DNA of 64,000 bases, from assembly GCA_902801565.1 (NCBI GenBank), contig CADCIX010000007.1, positions 1 to 64,000 of the forward strand. Direction: 5' to 3'. The DNA comes from an uncultured Veillonellaceae bacterium (GTDB taxonomy: Bacteria; Bacillota; Negativicutes; Selenomonadales; Selenomonadaceae). A program made the translations under genes and the position numbers. This document shows, one piece after another, positions 2,642-52,857 of this stretch. Under the pieces are notes generated by a model. The model was not told the DNA's origin, searched no databases, and worked only from the letters and a program-made list of their open reading frames with translations. Numbering within the stretch: the stretch's first letter is position 1; each line of letters opens with the position of its first letter.

Positions 2642-5011
2642 ATGGAAAAAGACGCGTTGAGGGTTTTGGAATACGACAAGATAAAGGAGATGCTGGAAGA
2701 GCGCGCCGGTTCTGCCTTGGGGAAGGAAAAGGCCGGGGGGCTTTGTCCCAGCAACGATTTCTCCGAGGTGAGCCAGTGGATGGCGGAGACAGAGGAAGCT
2801 GTGCGCATCTATGCGGCATCTGCGCCTCCCCTGGGAGGGATTCGCGATATCCGTCCTTTGCTGAAAAAAGTGGGCATGGGGGCAGTGCTGGGAACCGATG
2901 AGATCGTGGATGTCATGAGCACCATGTATGCTATGCGCAATGTCAAGCGTTTCTTCAAGGAGATGGAAACCGAGGCACCCATGCTGAAGCAGTGGGCGCA
3001 CAGCATCGAAATTCTTGGGCAGCTGGAACGCAATCTGGAGAATGCCATAGACGAGCATGGCGTCCTGCGGGACGATGCCAGTGTGGAACTTCGCCGCATC
3101 CGCCGGGAGATGAGGACGGCGCAGAATCGCATCAAGGAGCGCATCCATGGAGTGCTCCATTCCCAGGAGTACCAGAAGCTCTTTCAGGAAGCCATCATCA
3201 CCGTGCGGGATGAGAGGTATGTCATTCCCATCAAGCAGGAATACCGCTCCCAGTTCCCGGGCATTGTCCACGACCAGTCCGCCAGCGGCTCCACGCTTTT
3301 CATCGAGCCCATGGCCATCGTGGAACTCAACAATGACGTAAAGCAGCTCGCGCTGGCAGAGCATCAGGAAGTCCAGCGCATCCTGCGTTCTCTTTCGGCG
3401 CAGATCGGCAAGCAGGGGGATATCCTTCTGGAAAATACCGGGATTCTCGGGGATATTGATTTTGTCTTTGCCAAGGCTCGTCTGGCCAGGGACATGCATG
3501 GCACGCTGCCCCTGTTGAACACGGAGGGGCGCACGCGGCTCAACAAGGCCCGCCATCCCCTCATCCCGGCGGACCGGGTGGTTCCCATTGACATTGCCTT
3601 GGGAGCGGACTACCGCATGCTCTTGGTGACCGGCCCGAACACGGGCGGAAAAACCGTAAGCATGAAGACACTGGGGCTTCTTGTTCTCATGGCGCAGTCC
3701 GGCTGTTATATCCCTGCGGCCTCGGATTCGGAGGTTTCGGTTTATCATGACATCTATGCCGATATCGGTGACGAGCAGAGCATCGAGCAGAGCCTCAGCA
3801 CATTCTCTTCCCATATGACCCATATCATTGATATTCTGGACAAGGTGGAAGCGGAGGATCTGCTCCTGCTGGACGAGCTGGGGGCGGGAACCGATCCGGA
3901 GGAGGGGGCGGCGCTTGCCACGGCGATCCTGGAGCGATTGCTGGAGATGGGAGCCAGCACGATTGCCACCACCCATTATTCCGCCCTCAAGTCCTTTGCC
4001 TATACCCAGCCGGGCATCGAGAATGCCTGCGTGGAGTTTGACATCGGCACACTCCGGCCCACCTATCGCCTGCTGATCGGCATTCCCGGCGCCAGCAATG
4101 CCTTTGCCATCAGCAAGCGTCTGGGGCTTCCGGATTCCCTGGTGCTGCGGGCAAAGCAGCTTGTCAAGGCAGATCATGCGCAGTTTGAGCACGTCATCAA
4201 CGAACTGGAAAACGAGAAGATGATGTATGAGCAGCGCAATGCGGACATTTTGGAGCGTCAGCAGCGCGTGACCGCCATGGAACAGAAGCTGACGACGATG
4301 AAAGCGGAGCTTTCCAAACAAAAGGGCGACATCATCCGCAAGGCCAAGGAGCAGAGCGCGGCAATGGTGCGGCGCACGCGCCGTGAGTCCGAGGAAATCA
4401 TCAAGGCACTCAAGGAACAGTTCGATGACCAGGGCGTGAAGAAGCGCCAGCAGGCCATGCAGGAAGCGAGGGAGCGGCTCAATGATGCGGCGGACAGGGC
4501 GCATCCCGGCATCATGGCGCAAAAGGGCGTGGGAAAGCGCATCGACCTGAAAGCATTGGAACCGGGGGACATTGTCTATGTGACGAAACTGGACCAGAGG
4601 GGAACGGTGCTTTCTGTCAGGGGAAAAGAACTGGAAGTGCAGATCGGAAGCCTCAAGACCGTCATCGGGGCTTCTGCCTGCCGTTTTGTCGGAAAGGCTC
4701 CCAAGGAGGAGAAGACTGCGACGGAAAAGAGCCGCCAGGCAGGAATGTCTTTGCAGAAGACCGCCACAATCCAAAGGGAAATCGACGTGCGGGGTCTCAT
4801 GGTGAACGAGGCGGAAATGGTGGTGGGGAAATTCCTCGACGATGCCGTGATGGCAGGGCTGGGGCAGGTGCTCATCATCCATGGGAAAGGGACAGGGGCA
4901 CTGCGCAAGGGCCTGCAGGACTACCTGAAGCATCACCGCAATGTCCTCCGCTACGCCTTTGCGGATATTACCGAGGGCGGAACGGGCGCAACGGTGGTGG
5001 ATTTGAAATAA
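2642..5011 (+). CDS. mutS2: Endonuclease MutS2
   Basis: MutS2 is the MutS paralogue that lacks mismatch-binding domain I. It is reported to act on recombination intermediates and on collided ribosomes. The product (789 residues from this ATG) has MutS-type core and lever helices, the ATPase with Walker A GPNTGGKT near residue 331 and Walker B LLLLDELGAGTDP, a long Lys/Glu coiled coil, and a C-terminal Smr nuclease domain (from about residue 713: IDVRGLMVNEAE, then HGKGTGALRKG). An upstream in-frame ATG at 2621 would add seven residues. The 2642 start is preferred because it aligns with other MutS2 N-termini (LEYDKIKEML) and has GAGG 12 bases upstream. The gene begins 56 bases after mobile element A. 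Confidence 0.95.
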   Translation: MEKDALRVLEYDKIKEMLEERAGSALGKEKAGGLCPSNDFSEVSQWMAETEEAVRIYAASAPPLGGIRDIRPLLKKVGMGAVLGTDEIVDVMSTMYAMRNVKRFFKEMETEAPMLKQWAHSIEILGQLERNLENAIDEHGVLRDDASVELRRIRREMRTAQNRIKERIHGVLHSQEYQKLFQEAIITVRDERYVIPIKQEYRSQFPGIVHDQSASGSTLFIEPMAIVELNNDVKQLALAEHQEVQRILRSLSAQIGKQGDILLENTGILGDIDFVFAKARLARDMHGTLPLLNTEGRTRLNKARHPLIPADRVVPIDIALGADYRMLLVTGPNTGGKTVSMKTLGLLVLMAQSGCYIPAASDSEVSVYHDIYADIGDEQSIEQSLSTFSSHMTHIIDILDKVEAEDLLLLDELGAGTDPEEGAALATAILERLLEMGASTIATTHYSALKSFAYTQPGIENACVEFDIGTLRPTYRLLIGIPGASNAFAISKRLGLPDSLVLRAKQLVKADHAQFEHVINELENEKMMYEQRNADILERQQRVTAMEQKLTTMKAELSKQKGDIIRKAKEQSAAMVRRTRRESEEIIKALKEQFDDQGVKKRQQAMQEARERLNDAADRAHPGIMAQKGVGKRIDLKALEPGDIVYVTKLDQRGTVLSVRGKELEVQIGSLKTVIGASACRFVGKAPKEEKTATEKSRQAGMSLQKTATIQREIDVRGLMVNEAEMVVGKFLDDAVMAGLGQVLIIHGKGTGALRKGLQDYLKHHRNVLRYAFADITEGGTGATVVDLK

Positions 5012-5050
5012 AAGTTTATGGCAAATTTATGGAAAATGCATTGTCGATTG

Positions 5051-5059
5051 TGATATACT
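5051..5059 (+). promoter_or_regulatory. Possible extended -10 promoter of alaS
   Basis: TGATATACT is a TG-n extended -10 with TATACT at 5054-5059, about 75 bases before alaS. No convincing -35 is visible. The 124-base gap between mutS2 and alaS has no T-box hallmark, so tRNA-sensing control of alaS is not supported. Confidence 0.35.
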
Positions 5060-5135
5060 ATGGAAGATATTGTAATGAGAGAGGACTTGTGGTGTGAAAT
5101 GCGACAGGCCTTGATTTGCTGGAGGTAGATGAATT

Positions 5136-7763
5136 TTGAAGTATATGACCGGTAATGAACTGCGCGAGGCGTATCTGCAGTTCTTTGCAGAGAAACAAGG
5201 GCATCTTCGCATGCCCAGCTTTTCCTTGATTCCCGAGAACGATCCGACGTTGCTGTTGATCGGGGCGGGCATGGCGCCGCTGAAGCCTTTTTTCACGGGA
5301 AAGGTGAAGCCACCCCGCACCCGTGTGACCACGTGCCAGCGCTGCGTGCGTACGGGCGACATTGAGAATGTCGGGCGCACGGCGCGCCATCAGACCTATT
5401 TTGAGATGCTGGGGAATTTTTCCTTTGGCGACTACTTCAAGTCCGAGGCGATTCCCTGGGCATGGGAGTTCCTCACGGAAGTGGTGGAATTGCCGAAGGA
5501 CAAGCTTTGGGTCAGCGTGTATCCGAAGGATGACGAGGCTGTGGAGATCTGGCTGAAGCAGCCGGGTTTCCCGAAGGATCACATCGTGAAGCTGGAGGAC
5601 AATTTTTGGGAAATCGGCCCCGGTCCCTGCGGCCCGGATTCGGAAATCTATATCGACCTGGGAGAGGAGCGCGGCTGCGGCTCTCCTGACTGCGGTGTGG
5701 GCTGTGACTGCGACCGCTATCTTGAGATATGGAACCTTGTGTTCACCCAGTTCGACAAGCAGGAGGACGGGGAATACAAGCCCCTTGCCCACAAGAACAT
5801 CGACACGGGCTGCGGCCTGGAGCGCCTTGCTTCTGTGGTGCAGAACAAACGCACGAACTTCGAGACGGACCTTCTTTTCCCCATCATCGAGTATGCTTCG
5901 GGGATTTCCGGTGTGAAGTACGGGGAGGATGAGGAGAAGGATGTTTCCCTCAAGGTCATTGCCGACCATGCCCGCAGCATGGCCATCATGATCATGGATG
6001 GCATCCTGCCTTCCAATGAGGGCAGGGGCTATGTCCTGCGCCGCATCCTGCGCCGGGCGATCCGCCATGGCCGCATGCTGGGCATCAAGGACAAGTTCCT
6101 GGAGGGCGCCGTGGATGCTGTGGTGAAGATCTACAAGGATGCCTCCGATTTCCAGGAGCTCGTGAATCATCAGGATTACATCAAGAAGGTCATCCGCCTG
6201 GAGGAGGAACGTTTTGCTGCGACACTGGCGCAGGGCATGGATATGCTGAACAAGCATATCGAAGAGGTCAAGGCGGCTGGGAAGGAAGAGCTTTCCGGCG
6301 AGATCGGCTTCAAGCTTTACGATACCTATGGCTTCCCCTGGGAACTCACCGACGAGATCCTCCACGAGAACGGCCTGCTCCTGGACAAGGAGGGCTTTGA
6401 CAAGGCCATGGATGAGCAGCGCGAGCGCGCCCGCAGTGCGCGTGCAGAGAACCAGCGTGTCGCTGTCCCGGATCTCAGTTCCATTGATACCAGCCAGCTC
6501 AGGATGGACAATGCTGCCACGAAGGCAAATGTCGTTGCCATCTGGAAGGATGGGAAACTGGTGGATGCGCTGGAGGATGGCGAGGAAGCCGGGGTCATTC
6601 TGGATGTCACGCCCTTCTATGCGGAAGGTGGCGGGCAGGTTGGCGACTGCGGACGTTTCATCAGTGAGTTCGGCCATATCCGGGTGGATACTGCCAAGAA
6701 GCTGCCCGATGGCACGGTTTATCATATTGCCTATGTGGAAGAGGGTATGCTGAAGGTTGGCGATGAGGTGGTCATCGAGGTGGACCAGGCCAGCAAGCTG
6801 GCTTCGGCCCGCAATCATACGGCCACGCATCTTTTGCAGGCGGCCCTCAAGAAGGTGGTGGGCGACCAGGTGAACCAGGCGGGTTCTCTTGTCACCCCCG
6901 AGCGTCTGCGGTTTGACTTCACGAATTTCGAGCCGGTCAGTCCGCAACAGCTTGCGGATGTGGAGGAACTGGTCAACGAGGAAATCCTCAAGAGCACCGA
7001 TTTGGAGATTTCCCATATGTCCTTGGAAGAGGCAAAGGCGGCAGGCGCCATGGCGCTTTTTGGCGAGAAGTATGGCGATGTGGTGCGTGTCGTCAAGGTC
7101 CCGGGGTTCAGCATGGAGCTCTGCGGCGGTTCCCATGTGAAGAATGTGGGACAGATCGGCATGTTCAAGATTGTCAGCGAGACGGGCATTGCTTCCGGCG
7201 TGCGCCGCATCGAGGCGATTACGGGCAAGGCCGCCATTGAGCATGCAAACCATGAGATGAAGCTTTTGGAAGATACATCGATTCTCCTGAAGGTTCGCAA
7301 GGAAGATGTTCCTGCCCAGACGGAGAAGATGCTGGCTGCCCAGAAGGACATGCAGAAACAGCTGGAGCAGGTTCAGGAGATGCGCGAGAAGGCGGATGCA
7401 CAGAAGCTGCTCATGGCCGTGCAGGAAATCGGCGAGACTCATTTTGTCTGCGGCAGGGCTGCGGCGAAGGATATGGATGAGCTCAGGAATATCGCGGATC
7501 TGACCTGCGGGAAGCTGGAAAAGGGTATTGTCGTTCTGGCGGCTGTTGTGGATGGCAAGGTAAATCTTGTGGTCAAGGTGGAGAAATCCGTTGTTGGCAT
7601 GGGAGTCCATGCCGGCAAGATAATCAAGGAGGTTGCCAAGGTCGTTGGCGGCGGTGGCGGCGGACGCCCGGATATGGCCCAGGCAGGCGGCAAGCAGCCG
7701 GAGAATCTTCCCCAGGCTTTTGAGAAGGCGGGAGAGATGGTCCGTGCCCAGCTCGGCTGCTGA
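5136..7763 (+). CDS. alaS: Alanine--tRNA ligase, TTG start
   Basis: Charges tRNA-Ala with alanine in the cytoplasm. The 875-residue product has the full architecture: class II catalytic core (motif 2 region around TYFEMLGNFSFGDYF), the tRNA-recognition helices, an editing domain with zinc-binding HTATH near residue 560 and CGGSH near residue 662, and a C-terminal C-Ala domain with a Gly-rich GGGGGGRPDMAQAGG stretch. Translation most likely starts at TTG 5136, with GGAGG at 5121-5125 ten bases upstream; the nearest ATG (5145) is too far from that site. It is a free-standing housekeeping gene followed closely by a HlyD-type gene. Confidence 0.97.
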   Translation: MKYMTGNELREAYLQFFAEKQGHLRMPSFSLIPENDPTLLLIGAGMAPLKPFFTGKVKPPRTRVTTCQRCVRTGDIENVGRTARHQTYFEMLGNFSFGDYFKSEAIPWAWEFLTEVVELPKDKLWVSVYPKDDEAVEIWLKQPGFPKDHIVKLEDNFWEIGPGPCGPDSEIYIDLGEERGCGSPDCGVGCDCDRYLEIWNLVFTQFDKQEDGEYKPLAHKNIDTGCGLERLASVVQNKRTNFETDLLFPIIEYASGISGVKYGEDEEKDVSLKVIADHARSMAIMIMDGILPSNEGRGYVLRRILRRAIRHGRMLGIKDKFLEGAVDAVVKIYKDASDFQELVNHQDYIKKVIRLEEERFAATLAQGMDMLNKHIEEVKAAGKEELSGEIGFKLYDTYGFPWELTDEILHENGLLLDKEGFDKAMDEQRERARSARAENQRVAVPDLSSIDTSQLRMDNAATKANVVAIWKDGKLVDALEDGEEAGVILDVTPFYAEGGGQVGDCGRFISEFGHIRVDTAKKLPDGTVYHIAYVEEGMLKVGDEVVIEVDQASKLASARNHTATHLLQAALKKVVGDQVNQAGSLVTPERLRFDFTNFEPVSPQQLADVEELVNEEILKSTDLEISHMSLEEAKAAGAMALFGEKYGDVVRVVKVPGFSMELCGGSHVKNVGQIGMFKIVSETGIASGVRRIEAITGKAAIEHANHEMKLLEDTSILLKVRKEDVPAQTEKMLAAQKDMQKQLEQVQEMREKADAQKLLMAVQEIGETHFVCGRAAAKDMDELRNIADLTCGKLEKGIVVLAAVVDGKVNLVVKVEKSVVGMGVHAGKIIKEVAKVVGGGGGGRPDMAQAGGKQPENLPQAFEKAGEMVRAQLGC

Positions 7764-47583: not shown

Positions 47584-48147
47584 ATGGATGGTATGAATTT
47601 CGCAGTCGGCGAACGGTTCCCGCTTCCCATCCAGGCCATGGGGGATGGAGGAATGTTGCAGGCGGATGCCAACGGCATCATGTTCCTTCTTCAGCTTTCC
47701 CGTGCCGATGTCATTGCGGTGGAGGCATTCCGCACGGGGAAGATGGAACTGGCGCTTTACGAGCAGGATGGGCTTCTGTTCTTCCTCTATAAGATCGATG
47801 GAATATTCAAGGAGGGCTGGGGGGATGCGCCTGTGGGCCTGCACCGCTTGAAACGGGAAGCGTGGCCCACGGAAAAGAGCCTCGCCGATCCGACCCTTCA
47901 TCTTTATCTGGTAGATACGAATCTGCAAATCATCCTGGCCATGCGGCAGGTTACGATGTGCAGAGAATTTCACACTGTGCTGAAAAAGAACCTTGAGGCA
48001 CAAATGGCAGATCCCATGGAAAGCAAAGATTTTGTCCAATCGGTCCAATGCATCTGGAAGGAACGGACACCGGAACAGATGAGGGAAAAGGCTTCCGCGG
48101 TGCAAGAGGTCCCGTTGGAGCTTGCTGCACAAAAGATGCTGCACTAG
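47584..48147 (+). CDS. Hypothetical protein
   Basis: A 187-residue protein that I do not recognise. No signal peptide or membrane helix. The first 130 residues look like a mixed alpha/beta fold (MFLLQLSRADVIAVEAF, MELALYEQDGLLFFLYKIDG), and the last 50 are helical and charged. AGGAGG is eight bases before the ATG, so translation is well supported. The frame is open further upstream, but only across the lctP terminator. It could be transcribed by read-through from lctP or from an unseen promoter. Its 3' end contains a 12-bp palindrome around ACTAGT. Confidence 0.7.
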   Translation: MDGMNFAVGERFPLPIQAMGDGGMLQADANGIMFLLQLSRADVIAVEAFRTGKMELALYEQDGLLFFLYKIDGIFKEGWGDAPVGLHRLKREAWPTEKSLADPTLHLYLVDTNLQIILAMRQVTMCREFHTVLKKNLEAQMADPMESKDFVQSVQCIWKERTPEQMREKASAVQEVPLELAAQKMLH

Positions 48148-48228
48148 TGCAACAGATTTTAAATACATTCCAGAATCAGTCTATGGATTCTGTACTTGGC
48201 GTAGAGATTGTCTCGTATATCACATGCT

Positions 48229-49197
48229 TTACCAGTTGGCCTGGACAGCAGCAAGGGCATCCTCTTGTGAGAGGGAATAGCGTTTCATTACCTGCTCGAC
48301 AGCCTGTGTTTGATTGACGGACAGTTCCTTCATCGTGGCAATCAGGGCACGGATGCCGTTTGCTTTGCCTTCGGCACGGCCCTTGGCTCGACCAGCCTTC
48401 AATCCCTTGCGCATCATTTTTTCCGAGTGGAGCTCCAATATTTTGCCTCCCATGATGGATGATACCTCCTTTTTCGTTTTTCGCTGGTTTCTCAGCAGAT
48501 GATCCGTGATTTTCTTTGTGAGCTGCATGAGATCTGTACGAATGTTCTCATGTCTTGTATCGCCCATGCGCTCCTCAAGTATCCCTACCATCTCGCGAAG
48601 CTCTTTGAGCATGGCCTCCCGCTTGGCAGGGTCGCGCTCCATAGCATCGAAGTCCTTTTCGTAGCGCATGATGTAGTAGGGGAGGAAAATCCAAAGGTTT
48701 TTTCGGGAGATATCCTCCGGGGAGTAGTTTTGTACCTTGATGATAGGAACGCTGTAGCTGACGGTTTGGCTGTCGGGGAAGATTACCTTGAGTGCCAGTC
48801 TGTCTGGAGTGGTGCTGCTATGGCGCAAGTAAATCACGGCAGACAGGGGAAACCTTACGCAATCTGGAACATTGCTCTTGCGGGCTTCCTCCAAGGCAAT
48901 GGCGAAGTCGTATTCGAACATTCGTATGACCATCGTTCCGTCGGGATTGCTTTGGCATTCCAGATGATAGAGGATATCGCCCAGCCGAATGATGGAGTCT
49001 GTGATGATTTTCCCCGCCAGTTCCAAATGCTCATTGCGAAGCTGCTCTATGGCAGTGTGCTCATCGTAGTTCGTCCCGAAAGCCTCGTTGATGGCAGGGA
49101 TGATGAGGATGGTCAGCTTTTGGAGTATTGTCCGATAGACATCGTCAAAGATGGTGCCGACGGGAGGAGCAAGGGCTGCTTTTCGTGTTTTTTTCAT
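48229..49197 (-). CDS. Rpn/YhgA-like PD-(D/E)XK nuclease-family protein
   Basis: A 322-residue protein of the Rpn (recombination-promoting nuclease, PD-(D/E)XK) group, often annotated as putative transposase. An aspartate-containing helix (DSIIRLGD) leads to YHLECQSNPDG, where the Glu-x-Gln stands in for the catalytic E-x-K, followed by RMFEYDFAIA. The C-terminal third is highly charged and has the Gly-Arg-Ala-Lys repeats (GLKAGRAKGRAEGKANG) typical of the family. Whether it still cuts DNA is uncertain. AAGGAG lies eight bases before ATG 49197. It is opposed to its neighbours, with a strong own promoter. Confidence 0.8.
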   Translation of the reverse strand: MKKTRKAALAPPVGTIFDDVYRTILQKLTILIIPAINEAFGTNYDEHTAIEQLRNEHLELAGKIITDSIIRLGDILYHLECQSNPDGTMVIRMFEYDFAIALEEARKSNVPDCVRFPLSAVIYLRHSSTTPDRLALKVIFPDSQTVSYSVPIIKVQNYSPEDISRKNLWIFLPYYIMRYEKDFDAMERDPAKREAMLKELREMVGILEERMGDTRHENIRTDLMQLTKKITDHLLRNQRKTKKEVSSIMGGKILELHSEKMMRKGLKAGRAKGRAEGKANGIRALIATMKELSVNQTQAVEQVMKRYSLSQEDALAAVQANW

Positions 49198-49232
49198 GGC
49201 ACGACTCCTTCTTGTGGAATTTTCTTACATTT

Positions 49233-49260
49233 ATTGTAGCATGTCTGGGGAGGTTGTCAA
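49233..49260 (-). promoter_or_regulatory. Promoter of the Rpn-like gene (- strand)
   Basis: On the - strand: TTGACA (-35, 49260-49255) and TACAAT (-10, 49238-49233), spacing 16, with a TG-C extension before the -10. Confidence 0.75.
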
Positions 49261-49341
49261 TATGGGAAAAGGATGGCAGAGGCTGGGCTGGCGTATAAAT
49301 TTTACATCTCCTTAGGGAAAAAGGAAACAAAGGATTTATTT

Positions 49342-49482
49342 ATGAAGAATATTCTTACAGGTGAAGTTGCGGATTATATATTCGCTGATGAACTTCGCTA
49401 TGATTATCATGTAGAAACTTTCACAAGGGAGGCTCTTTTTATTGGATTATCGAACTTAATAGATGAATTAGAAGCGAGTTAA
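49342..49482 (+). CDS. Small AT-rich reading frame, possible gene remnant
   Basis: A 46-residue frame (MKNILTGEVADYIF... ELEAS) with AAGGA seven bases upstream. The frame remains open to 49273, giving 69 residues. It is much more AT-rich than the surrounding genes and matches nothing I recognise. It may be a real small protein, or the tail of a gene lost from this patch. From 49483 to 49641 I see no feature. Confidence 0.35.
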   Translation: MKNILTGEVADYIFADELRYDYHVETFTREALFIGLSNLIDELEAS

Positions 49483-49641
49483 GAATGGATTAAGATGAAG
49501 TGGAGATTATGCTATTATTTTTGTGATTGGAATGTCCTCTCTCCCCAATATCTCGATGCCCAGGGTGTGGACATTGTGGAGGATGCTGTTTTCTTCCTTT
49601 GGGGCCCTCGAAGGCGCGGGGTGGTTCCATGAGAAAAACTA

Positions 49642-49650
49642 TGCTATACT
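49642..49650 (+). promoter_or_regulatory. Extended -10 promoter of the AAA/PD-(D/E)XK gene
   Basis: TG-C-TATACT with TATACT at 49645-49650, 39 bases before the ATG. The -35 region is weak. Confidence 0.5.
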
Positions 49651-49688
49651 GAACGCAAGGGGAAGTGCATGTATGGGAGGTGCTCGGG

Positions 49689-51368
49689 ATGCAGGAAAGA
49701 AAACGCCCCATGCCTGTGGGCATTGAGGATTTTGGGGAATTGATCCGGAGGGAGTATTGCTTCGTTGACAAGACTAGGTTCATCCGGGAATTATTGGATT
49801 CTCAGGGGAAGATTACCTTGATTACTCGTCCCCGCCGTTTCGGCAAGACACTGACTCTTTCCATGCTCCAATACTTTTTCGCCTTGGAGAACGCGGAGGA
49901 AAACAGGGAGCTCTTCCTTGGGCTGGACATCGAGCGTGCAGGAGAGAAGTACATGCGGGAACAGGGAACAAGGCCCGTGGTGTTTCTCACGCTGAAGGAA
50001 GTTCAGGCAGGAACATTTGCGGAGATGCAGGTAATTTTGGCAGAGTTCCTGCGAGCCCTTTACGGACAATCTCAATATCTGGAACACAGCGAATCTCTTT
50101 CCAAGCAGGAGAGACAGTATTTCACTGCTATCCTGAATGAAGCCTGTGATATGGGAAAAATGAGGTTTTCCCTTTCAAATCTTATGAAAATGCTGGAAAA
50201 ACATCACGGGAAAAAGCCGGTTCTCCTTCTGGACGAGTACGATGCCCCCATTCTCTCCGCCTGGGAGAATGGATATTACAAGGAAGGTATCGACTTCATG
50301 CGGGGATTTCTTGGCTCTGCCCTCAAAACGAATCCCTCTCTAGGGTTGGCTGTTCTGACAGGGGTGACGCGGATCTCCAAGGAGAGTATTTTCAGCGGCC
50401 TCAACAATCTCAGGGTCTGCTCTGTGCTGTCGGAGGCCTACTGCGATATTTTTGGCTTTACCCAGGAGGAAGCGGCAAGGCTTATGAAGGGATGCGGGGT
50501 AGAGGACAAACTGCCGGAGCTCAAGCGATGGTATGACGGCTACCAATTTGGCTGGGCAGAAATCTACAATCCTTGGTCGGTCATTCGCTACATTGACGAG
50601 GGCTGCAGGTTTCGCCCCTATTGGCTGAACACTTCCGGCAATTCGATTTTGAGGGTGCTGTTAGAGCAGGTGGACGGTCGCAGGAAGGAGGAACTGGAGG
50701 GCTTGCTCAAGGGGAAGCCGGTGGAGGCTCCTGTTCTGGAGAACATCGTCTATGCCGATATCCATTCCAATCGCAATGCCCTCTTCATGATGCTCCTGAC
50801 CACGGGCTATCTGAAGGCGGTGGACATTTGGCAGGACGAGCGGGATATGGAATGGGCCAGTCTGCAGATCCCCAACAAGGAAATTCGCCGCGCCTTTCAG
50901 GATGAGATTCTGGTGAACATTGCTCCACGGCAGGGGATGATTCTGTGCCGTGATATGATGGAAGCCATGGCCAAGGGAACCACTGAGGATTTTGCCAAAT
51001 ATCTTTCGGAACTCCTGCGGGACTTCGTGAGTTATCATGATGCTGCCCAGCCAGAGTCTTTTTATCACGGTCTTATCTTGGGATTTAGCGTCCTGATGGA
51101 AGACGAATATCGCGTGGAGTCCAATCGCGAGAGCGGCTATGGACGTTTTGACATCGCCTTCTTTCCTCTGAAGGATGGGGCCCCCGGTGTTGTCCTGGAA
51201 TTGAAATCCGTCAAGTCCGAGGATGCCATGGAGGAAACGGCAAAGGAAGCCCTTCGCCAGATCGAGGAGAAAGCATATTTCACGGAACTCTCCCGGCAAG
51301 GGGTGAGGGCGGTCTGGAAGTACGGCATTTCCTTTTGTGGGAAGAAGGTATGGCTGGAGCAGGGATAG
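49689..51368 (+). CDS. AAA-ATPase-like / PD-(D/E)XK nuclease-superfamily protein, complete
   Basis: A 559-residue two-domain protein. The N-terminal AAA-ATPase-like domain (about 5-300) has VDKTRFIRELL, a P-loop variant TRPRRFGKTLTLSML, Walker B PVLLLDEYDAPI and a sensor-like TGVTRISKESIFSGLNN. The C-terminal PD-(D/E)XK domain (about 470-559) has YGRFDIAFFP and GVVLELKSVK. This family is expanded in anaerobic gut bacteria, often in many divergent copies; its biological role is not established. The start at 49689 has GGGAGG eight bases upstream. A second family member ends at base 217. Neither copy shows frameshifts. Confidence 0.88.
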   Translation: MQERKRPMPVGIEDFGELIRREYCFVDKTRFIRELLDSQGKITLITRPRRFGKTLTLSMLQYFFALENAEENRELFLGLDIERAGEKYMREQGTRPVVFLTLKEVQAGTFAEMQVILAEFLRALYGQSQYLEHSESLSKQERQYFTAILNEACDMGKMRFSLSNLMKMLEKHHGKKPVLLLDEYDAPILSAWENGYYKEGIDFMRGFLGSALKTNPSLGLAVLTGVTRISKESIFSGLNNLRVCSVLSEAYCDIFGFTQEEAARLMKGCGVEDKLPELKRWYDGYQFGWAEIYNPWSVIRYIDEGCRFRPYWLNTSGNSILRVLLEQVDGRRKEELEGLLKGKPVEAPVLENIVYADIHSNRNALFMMLLTTGYLKAVDIWQDERDMEWASLQIPNKEIRRAFQDEILVNIAPRQGMILCRDMMEAMAKGTTEDFAKYLSELLRDFVSYHDAAQPESFYHGLILGFSVLMEDEYRVESNRESGYGRFDIAFFPLKDGAPGVVLELKSVKSEDAMEETAKEALRQIEEKAYFTELSRQGVRAVWKYGISFCGKKVWLEQG

Positions 51369-52158: not shown

Positions 52159-52857
52159 TCAAGGGCTGCGGAAGCAAAAATAGATTCCCAGGATTCCCCG
52201 TTTCAGGGCAACGGGGAATCTTTTTTTCCCTTCGGGCACGTTGCTGATGGTGTTGGGCATGTGCTGATGCAGAGTGGCATCCTTCAGGGGCCAGTGGACG
52301 CCGGAGATGGTGACGCCGCTGCATTCTGCGGTGAGGGGGAGGAGGGAGATGGCAAGTGGTTCCTGGTGGCAGTTGATCCGGATTTCCATGTCGTCTTTCA
52401 GGAAGAGGAGGAGTTCCTGCTCGTCGGCAAGGCAGCAGGAGGGCTTGGCATTGGCGCAGGAAAAGATGTTGGCGAAGGCATGGTCAAAGCGTCCCCCGAA
52501 GGCTCCCGTGACGATGGCGAAGGCGGTGGGGGGCAATTTTTCCAGGGCAAGCTGTGTATCGGTGAGATCTTTTTCTGAGGGGTAGGTGTCGGTTGCGGAG
52601 GAAAAGGAACTGCCCCATTCCCATGCTTCCCTGGAGGCGCTGTCCCTGTCGCCCAGCAGGTGTTCGGGGCGGATTCCGGCTTTTTGGCAGATGTCGATTC
52701 CATGGTCGATGGCCCAGGGAATGCGTCCAACGGCAGCCTGCCTCAGCCATTCGACGGCAGGAGGCCGCCCTCCGATGACGAGGATATGCTGTTTTTCGGG
52801 AAGCGCATGGGGGTATTCTATTGTTGCCTGGGGAAGTTCCAGTCTGCATTCGTTCAT
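52159..52857 (-). CDS. Thiamine pyrophosphokinase
   Basis: Phosphorylates thiamine to thiamine diphosphate. The 232-residue protein has the TPK landmarks: AIDHGIDICQKAGI, LLGDRDSAS, the SEKDLTDTQLAL motif, TGAFGGRFDHAFAN, and TISNVPEG in the thiamine-binding C-terminal domain. Length fits the family. GAGG lies upstream of ATG 52857. No TPP riboswitch is visible upstream. The last coding bases also form a rho-independent terminator for nagB on the other strand. Confidence 0.88.
   Translation of the reverse strand: MNECRLELPQATIEYPHALPEKQHILVIGGRPPAVEWLRQAAVGRIPWAIDHGIDICQKAGIRPEHLLGDRDSASREAWEWGSSFSSATDTYPSEKDLTDTQLALEKLPPTAFAIVTGAFGGRFDHAFANIFSCANAKPSCCLADEQELLLFLKDDMEIRINCHQEPLAISLLPLTAECSGVTISGVHWPLKDATLHQHMPNTISNVPEGKKRFPVALKRGILGIYFCFRSP
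52192..52227 (+). terminator. nagB terminator embedded in the 3' coding end of the thiamine pyrophosphokinase gene
   Basis: GATTCCCCGTT (52192-52202) pairs perfectly with AACGGGGAATC (52210-52220), followed by seven T. It lies 34 bases after the nagB stop and wholly inside the opposing gene. Confidence 0.85.

Follow-up and report, generated by a model that had tools for sequence, protein, structure and literature searches.

The window analysed here is a stretch of 64,000 nucleotides from contig CADCIX010000007.1 (assembly GCA_902801565.1, an uncultured Veillonellaceae bacterium of the Selenomonadaceae), part of a 2.71-Mb genome in 69 contigs, and our subject is the short patch of genes that lies in it between lctP of the lactate operon and nagB (Table 1). 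All four reading frames that an earlier note had described in this patch are present, the last of them ending at 51368, and two of them encode nuclease-fold proteins from different families, both patchily distributed: a plus-strand gene for an ATPase-nuclease of the DUF1703 family (hereafter the AAA gene) and a minus-strand, Rpn-like gene (rpn). The patch is a breakpoint at which one solitary member of each of these two multi-copy families stands beside a conserved gene. Comparison of the AAA gene with its relatives revealed a multi-copy family, spread over three phyla (Bacillota, Bacteroidota and Fusobacteriota), with an exchangeable cassette that keeps its fold.

Table 1. Features of the patch, with positions in the window.
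Feature	Position	Strand	Remark
DUF1703 protein, STAND-like ATPase (PF09820) plus PD-(D/E)XK nuclease (PF08011), 559 aa	49689..51368	+	Pfam
Hypervariable, exchangeable helical cassette, aa 102-180	49992..50228	+	Between Walker A (aa 47-54) and Walker B (aa 179-185)
Second, milder variable block, aa 376-440	50814..51008	+	Between ATPase and nuclease
TATACT -10-like box of the AAA gene	49645..49650	+	Leader shared by 7/10 aligned paralogues
rpn, full-length Rpn-like PD-(D/E)XK protein (RpnL-like), 322 aa	48229..49197	-	ITD/ECQ motif, aa 65-82
Predicted internal gene, 74-aa RpnS-like antitoxin (MGGKILELHSEK..., four-residue repeats)	48229..48453	-	Internal ATG at aa 249
Shine-Dalgarno AGGAGG of the internal start	48465..48470	-	11 nt upstream of the ATG
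Sigma-70-like rpn promoter, TTGACA-16-TACAAT, TG before the second box	49233..49260	-	11/12 matches
187-aa protein, function unassigned, core-like	47584..48147	+	Match in 22/59 other genomes
One end of a dispersed palindromic repeat, resembling a miniature inverted-repeat transposable element (MITE)	48144..48169	+	96% to repeat end
AT-rich frame of 46 codons, unlikely to be a gene	49342..49482	+	GC 0.333; unmatched

The AAA protein belongs to DUF1703, a family described in 2007, and matches both PF09820 (E 7.6e-47, 160.2 bits; cut-off 26.1) and PF08011 (E 1.1e-19, 70.8 bits; cut-off 25.5), its closest named matches being proteins of uncultured Selenomonas and Selenomonadaceae, many of them labelled as rumen-derived. 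A modified Walker A (RPRRFGKT, residue 47), a Walker B (LLLDEYD, 179) and the nuclease signature (FDIAF, 487; LELK, 503; QIEEK, 524) are all present, in agreement with the RPRRFGK[ST], DEYD and nuclease motifs of the family description (PMC1913061). The start of the gene is better placed at the ATG at 49689, which has GGAGG upstream and gives 560 codons, because start and leader are common to the paralogues, whose shared unit is the short TATACT leader plus the gene; nagB starts 22 nt after the stop codon. The suggestion that each nuclease gene carries its own promoter is supported for rpn by its box; for the AAA gene it is not confirmed, since it depends on the TATACT box and the shared leader and the promoter scan gave no convincing -35 box. 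Overall the promoter scan did not rise above chance (5 found, 3.9 +/- 1.9 expected).

The source genome contains 30 matches to the nuclease domain (PDDEXK_9), dispersed over many contigs and not clustered at one site. Across the comparison set of 59 other genomes (60 including its own) the domain occurs in 17 of the 60, the next largest sets numbering 27, 20, 17, 13 and 11; these counts are minimal, because some copies are tandemly arranged and several contigs break off within a copy. From the other genomes, the PF08011 matches taken for comparison were 20 of 27 (G033), 16 of 17 (G004), 11 of 20 (G029), 8 of 11 (G027), 4 of 13 (G001) and 1 of 7 (G016).

Paralogues differ most in a segment of some 60-75 residues that separates Walker A from Walker B (the cassette), and close paralogues align without gaps over residues 102-180. 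Within genomes, identity drops from 0.82-0.98 in the flanking motifs to 0.27-0.48 at residues 106-165 (G000, G004, G029 and G027), with 0.50-0.67 over the same residues in G033. Among twelve paralogues of the source genome, non-synonymous differences per site (pN) averaged 0.43 for the cassette, 0.35 for the second block and 0.11-0.14 for the remainder, the synonymous values (pS) being 0.73, 0.66 and 0.56-0.59, respectively. Core and cassette identity were uncorrelated among the 273 pairs with a core identity of at least 0.75, and the nearest neighbour by core was also the nearest by cassette in 15 of 87 cases (seven of the 87 lacking a usable cassette segment). The copy in the window was included in all three of these comparisons; the pair test that follows did not use it. 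There, 278 within-genome pairs had all segments and 20 of them had both flanks at 85% DNA identity or more, and in these 20 the cassette was below 60% identical in 17 pairs, between 60 and 75% in two and above that in one, compared with 2 of 69 when the same test was centred on seven other places.

Individual pairs illustrate both sides of this exchange. The neighbouring copies L227 and L228 of G033 are identical at the DNA level over most of their remaining length and 40-55% identical in the cassette, and L211 and L223 of the same genome share a cassette (0.97) on diverged backbones (core 0.76). On complete Persicobacter plasmids, L371 and L372 are 100% identical from codon 181 to the end and about 50% identical at codons 101-160, and a replicon of Fusobacterium vincentii (L377 and L379) shows the dip at the same place with the same boundaries (17 of 19 matches used; pairs above 0.55 amino acid identity shown); since these replicons are finished, draft assembly does not explain the dip. 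Near-identical flanks around unrelated cassettes indicate exchange by recombination. The 20 copies compared from the source genome carry 12 cassette types at 70% identity, and in the window copy the GC content of the cassette is 0.44 versus 0.52 for the gene.

An AlphaFold2 model (61 sequences; mean predicted local distance difference test score, pLDDT, 86) renders the cassette as five helices (pLDDT 92-97) that precede the strand bearing Walker B, and a relative whose cassette is 43% identical is predicted to have the same helices. Hydrophobic positions of the cassette are conserved and its other positions vary; the AlphaFold alignments A3 and A5 comprise 60 and 48 of 69 clean full-length loci. 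The AAA protein has no solved relative by sequence. By predicted structure, its ATPase part (model residues about 6-411) matches 2qen (Z 16.8, root-mean-square deviation 4.0, 303 residues aligned) and 2fna (Z 15.6), which we take to be archaeal STAND-type ATPases, followed by CED-4 (Z 13.4), RPP1 (Z 13.2), Apaf-1 and plant nucleotide-binding leucine-rich repeat proteins (NLRs), while the C-terminus of the model matches the nuclease region of CidB (Z 11.9); the top Foldseek match is Avs3 (E 4.7e-5, low TM-score). The ATPase part is thus predicted, as a fold, to have the nucleotide-binding and helical domains of the STAND type, and in place of the C-terminal repeat sensor of STAND proteins and NLRs the chain ends with its PD-(D/E)XK domain.

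We infer from this arrangement that the cassette sets specificity while the nuclease acts as effector, most likely against a mobile element or a rival. In such a scheme each copy would be an NLR-like switch, in which the ATPase would keep the nuclease inactive and the cassette would decide which partner or ligand is bound, most likely one from a phage, a plasmid or a rival. Binding would lead to ATP-dependent assembly and then to cleavage of nucleic acid, and exchange of cassettes would supply new specificities. The same observations could also be read without any outside ligand, the cassette serving as an insulation code by which each paralogue assembles only with itself. The STAND-type fold suggests assembly, a cell with many near-identical copies would have to insulate them from each other, the cassette holds one fold while its surface varies, and in Rpn proteins the number of repeats provides a precedent for such pairing (PMC10327210). 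Assembly is, however, read from a predicted fold, and genomes with a single copy would not need insulation; we regard this explanation as possible but rather unlikely.

The genetic contexts of the family bear on whether NLR-like switches in genetic conflict are a reasonable description. AAA family members occur in 58 of 72,556 plasmid records. On a Cetobacterium plasmid (L387, NZ_CP092521.1) a DUF1703 gene is flanked by hsdS and hsdR, within a type I restriction-modification locus that also has a Fic gene, and on the Selenomonas plasmid pSRC6 an ATPase-only relative is found near Fic and methyltransferase genes. In the Persicobacter arrays (L384, NZ_AP025300.1 57412-68994), AAA/DUF1703 genes alternate with RHS-core genes and small hypothetical genes. 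As support for a conflict context of the AAA family these cases are thin. PF09820 is listed among the domains of RADAR, PARIS 1 and Old-tin (PMC10952713). We also considered that the AAA gene might be phage cargo and rejected this: no close relatives of it or of rpn were present in viral contigs, and the AAA homologues in 35 of 50,697 phage-collection records are distant, all below 60% identity.

Occurrence on plasmids, together with patchy distribution and expansion, would equally suit a selfish, addiction-like family whose copies persist for themselves, the cassette pairing each copy with an unseen antidote of its own, and a DUF1703 homologue in the Medea element of Tribolium (as cited in PMC6387759) points the same way. 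Against this, no recurrent antidote gene appeared next to the copies at 97 loci; close viral relatives are lacking as well, and we consider this reading unlikely. In Cardinium, for which both expansion of DUF1703 genes and intragenic recombination have been reported, signal peptides were predicted in 10 of 25 cCpun copies (PMC6387759), and by analogy, following a proposal made for those copies, DUF1703 proteins could be exported nuclease effectors that act outside the cell. The N-terminus of the AAA protein (MQERKRPMPVGIEDF) is by eye unlike a signal peptide, and this start is common to the paralogues; we rate secretion as very unlikely.

The second nuclease gene of the patch, rpn, by its sequence fits the Rpn gene-within-gene kind. 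Rpn genes are experimentally established anti-phage toxin-antitoxin genes in which the antitoxin is encoded inside the gene (PMC10327210), and the statement that no known defence system is recognised here is therefore out of date for rpn, although it agrees with PADLOC-DB 2.0.0. The ATG of rpn is preceded by AAGGAG, and the nuclease motif was read by eye as ITD at residues 65-67 and ECQ at residues 80-82. The putative internal start (MGGK) is at residue 249 and the four-residue repeats run from residue 264 (KGLK), about 15-16 residues past the Met, compared with the 8-20 residues after the internal Met that characterize Rpn genes (PMC10327210). An MGGK-like internal start with an upstream Shine-Dalgarno sequence recurs in most homologues (L098 was not flagged by the motif scan), and the Shine-Dalgarno pairing is stronger than under a synonymous-codon null, with a combined z of -3.71 over 18 homologues, which is not a probability as these are mutually related, and a mean of +0.15 over 669 control positions. 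These features are consistent with rpn being a separate toxin (RpnL) that would be inhibited by an antitoxin (RpnS) translated from its 3' end. No relative with a solved structure was found by sequence, and the phage and plasmid collections contained no Rpn.

The two ends of the Rpn protein appear to have different histories. Its N-terminal 245 residues match three of the 12 proteins compared (L098, L099 and L120), whereas its C-terminal 52 residues match 10 of the 12 at E below 1e-8, nine of these ten being unlike Rpn in their N-terminal part. Three of the nine proteins that share the C-terminal module alone are fragments or short frames, and of the four that were scanned two gave PDDEXK_2 hits and two gave hits of the YhgA-like kind, one of them slightly short of the cut-off. 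Because the C-terminal module occurs with different N-terminal nuclease parts, and L099 from the same genus shares the N-terminal part only (64% identical, C-terminal part different), the modules have been reshuffled. L134 (G004:C4, ~4653-6584) has two C-terminal rpn remnants in succession ahead of a full-length rpn gene, the kind of trace that internal deletions in tandem copies would leave, and L100 (G030:C85) carries, besides a full rpn gene, an extra copy of its C-terminal part in which the four-residue repeats differ in number from those of the full gene. The number of RpnS repeats is reported to fix RpnL-RpnS pairing (PMC10327210).

Whether the patch interrupts a housekeeping order, as had been proposed, depends on lctP and nagB having been neighbours. 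Two genomes of the same genus were available (88% and 79% complete), and in one of them, G001, other genes follow the lactate operon (lctP 88% identical) and nagB (89%) is on a separate contig, so that both sit in contexts different from those of the window. Neighbourhoods in other genomes were compared over flanks of up to 1.5 kb; lctP was not near nagB at any of the other nagB loci, and one of 29 (in G004) has an AAA gene close by, differently oriented. An ancestral lctP-nagB slot was accordingly rejected, the gene order of G001 being different, and in the relatives examined the two genes are not neighbours. The block SpoU methylase-thiN-mbl-miaA-hfq is contiguous in G001 and its genes are close together in G004 and G018 too, while in the window the methylase (1620-2423) and thiN (52159-52857) are some 50 kb apart. 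Because the lctP and nagB contexts differ in G001 and the methylase and thiN are split here, the patch looks like a rearrangement or synteny breakpoint and not like the inside of a conserved order. The ~50 kb between the SpoU methylase and thiN (2423-52159) represent a large insertion or rearrangement in the source genome. In G001, nagB is preceded by a 141-residue protein (L127, 2788-3213) that is PIN-domain-like by eye.

The earlier note saw in this layout a mobile or defence-like hotspot, taken here as a site that gathers defence genes by integration, and it held that finding these genes conserved at the site across the whole genus would speak against it. Such conservation was not seen, the 187-aa gene being unmatched in both same-genus genomes, and the adjacency of two nuclease-fold genes, the truncated dispersed repeat at one patch edge and flanks that are not kept in relatives are all in keeping with a hotspot. 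The family of the AAA gene is, however, scattered over the genome, a Pfam scan of 17 of the window's proteins gave no integrase or transposase family, and no long flanking repeats were found, the one pair of direct repeats detected in the patch (26 nt, 85% alike) lying inside the two coding regions. Variable content between conserved flanks, the mark of a hotspot, is not what G001 presents, where lctP and nagB are not adjacent. The patch is thus not a recognisable integration hotspot, and we judge that reading very unlikely.

As an accessory patch the locus holds up for the two nuclease-fold genes only. The 187-aa gene, conserved and present in single copy, is not accessory, with one match per genome in its 22 genomes (one of them weak, over 49 residues); within flanks of up to 1.5 kb, lctP, rpn, the AAA gene and nagB are absent beside it in all 22. 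The family is conserved in Selenomonadaceae and other relatives. Its product matches one PHROGs family (phrog_12389, function unknown, E 1.9e-15), no Pfam, NCBIfam or PADLOC family, no phage and no PDB relative worth naming. The 46-codon frame is probably not a gene, because it has no homologue in the 37 other genomes against which it was compared and a GC content of 33%; it has no Pfam, NCBIfam, PADLOC or PHROGs family. The repeat end overlaps the stop-codon region of the 187-aa gene, and its opposite end is missing in the window. Genome-wide this repeat has 31 matches, of which six reach about 100 bp or more, up to 189 bp, and the full unit folds (z -3.24). The MITE-like repeat often lies right at a stop codon (CTAG; L062, L064, L065 and L066), and its core has many copies in the genome. 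No Rfam RNA was found in the patch.

Overall, we favour the reading that the patch is a breakpoint holding a member of a cassette-diversified repertoire of DUF1703 nucleases, NLR-like switches in genetic conflict, and a separate RpnL/RpnS gene, and we put its probability at roughly 0.5. Several observations weigh against it. Most contexts examined are not defence islands, three other plasmid contexts contain nothing conflict-like except the RelB and YoeB genes in the first, the neighbours of the patch in the window are metabolic genes, and a recurrent partner gene beside AAA copies was sought at 97 loci and rejected, the largest shared neighbour cluster covering 11 of the 97. Because pS is also raised in the cassette, what the data establish is exchange, beyond a high rate of amino acid change alone, and they do not establish positive selection. 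The second block means that the cassette is not the sole variable part, one of the 20 pairs with similar flanks shares its cassette (at least 75%), and so does the close pair L247 and L248 of G027. The rpn product scores 26.8 bits in NCBIfam TIGR01784 (cut-off 52.1), L123 and L117, relatives with the same C-terminal module, scoring 95-96, and PADLOC-DB 2.0.0 has no match for either nuclease gene. The literature searched on DUF1703/PF09820/PF08011, Rpn and STAND NTPases gave no measured function for any DUF1703 protein; it gave no description of the cassette either.

The cassette places most of the variability of DUF1703 proteins in one folded, exchangeable segment, in three phyla, and thereby indicates where specificity should be looked for. 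If it is the cassette that determines what the nuclease responds to, bacteria would have in these repertoires an equivalent of the diversified families of NLR receptors. More broadly, and here we are tentative, at least three bacterial phyla may possess NLR-like ATPase-nuclease repertoires in which recognition lies in a swappable cassette within the nucleotide-binding domain and is renewed by recombination between paralogues, a combinatorial innate immunity without a C-terminal repeat sensor.

Three known systems invite comparison. With DUF1703 proteins as described, the AAA protein shares domain order, the RPRRFGKT and DEYD motifs and the nuclease signature (PMC1913061), as well as in-genome expansion with recombination between paralogues, known from Cardinium (PMC6387759) and also from PMC1913061; it differs in that variation is located in one exchangeable helical cassette, which lies between Walker A and B, and in the milder second block. 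The likeness to STAND proteins and NLRs (the PF01637-type 2qen, 2fna, CED-4, Apaf-1, plant NLRs and Avs3) lies in the predicted ATPase fold (Z 16.8 to 9), whereas sequence identity is low (8-17% among the matches listed), a C-terminal repeat sensor is lacking and the variable element is inside the nucleotide-binding domain. With Rpn/COG5464 genes, rpn has in common the PD-(D/E)XK motif, a putative internal ribosome-binding site and start, four-residue repeats after the internal Met, patchy distribution and a variable C-terminal domain; it departs from them in scoring below the TIGR01784 cut-off, in the longer spacing of 11 nt between the Shine-Dalgarno sequence and the internal ATG, and in a C-terminal module that is also found in proteins of other N-terminal nuclease families.

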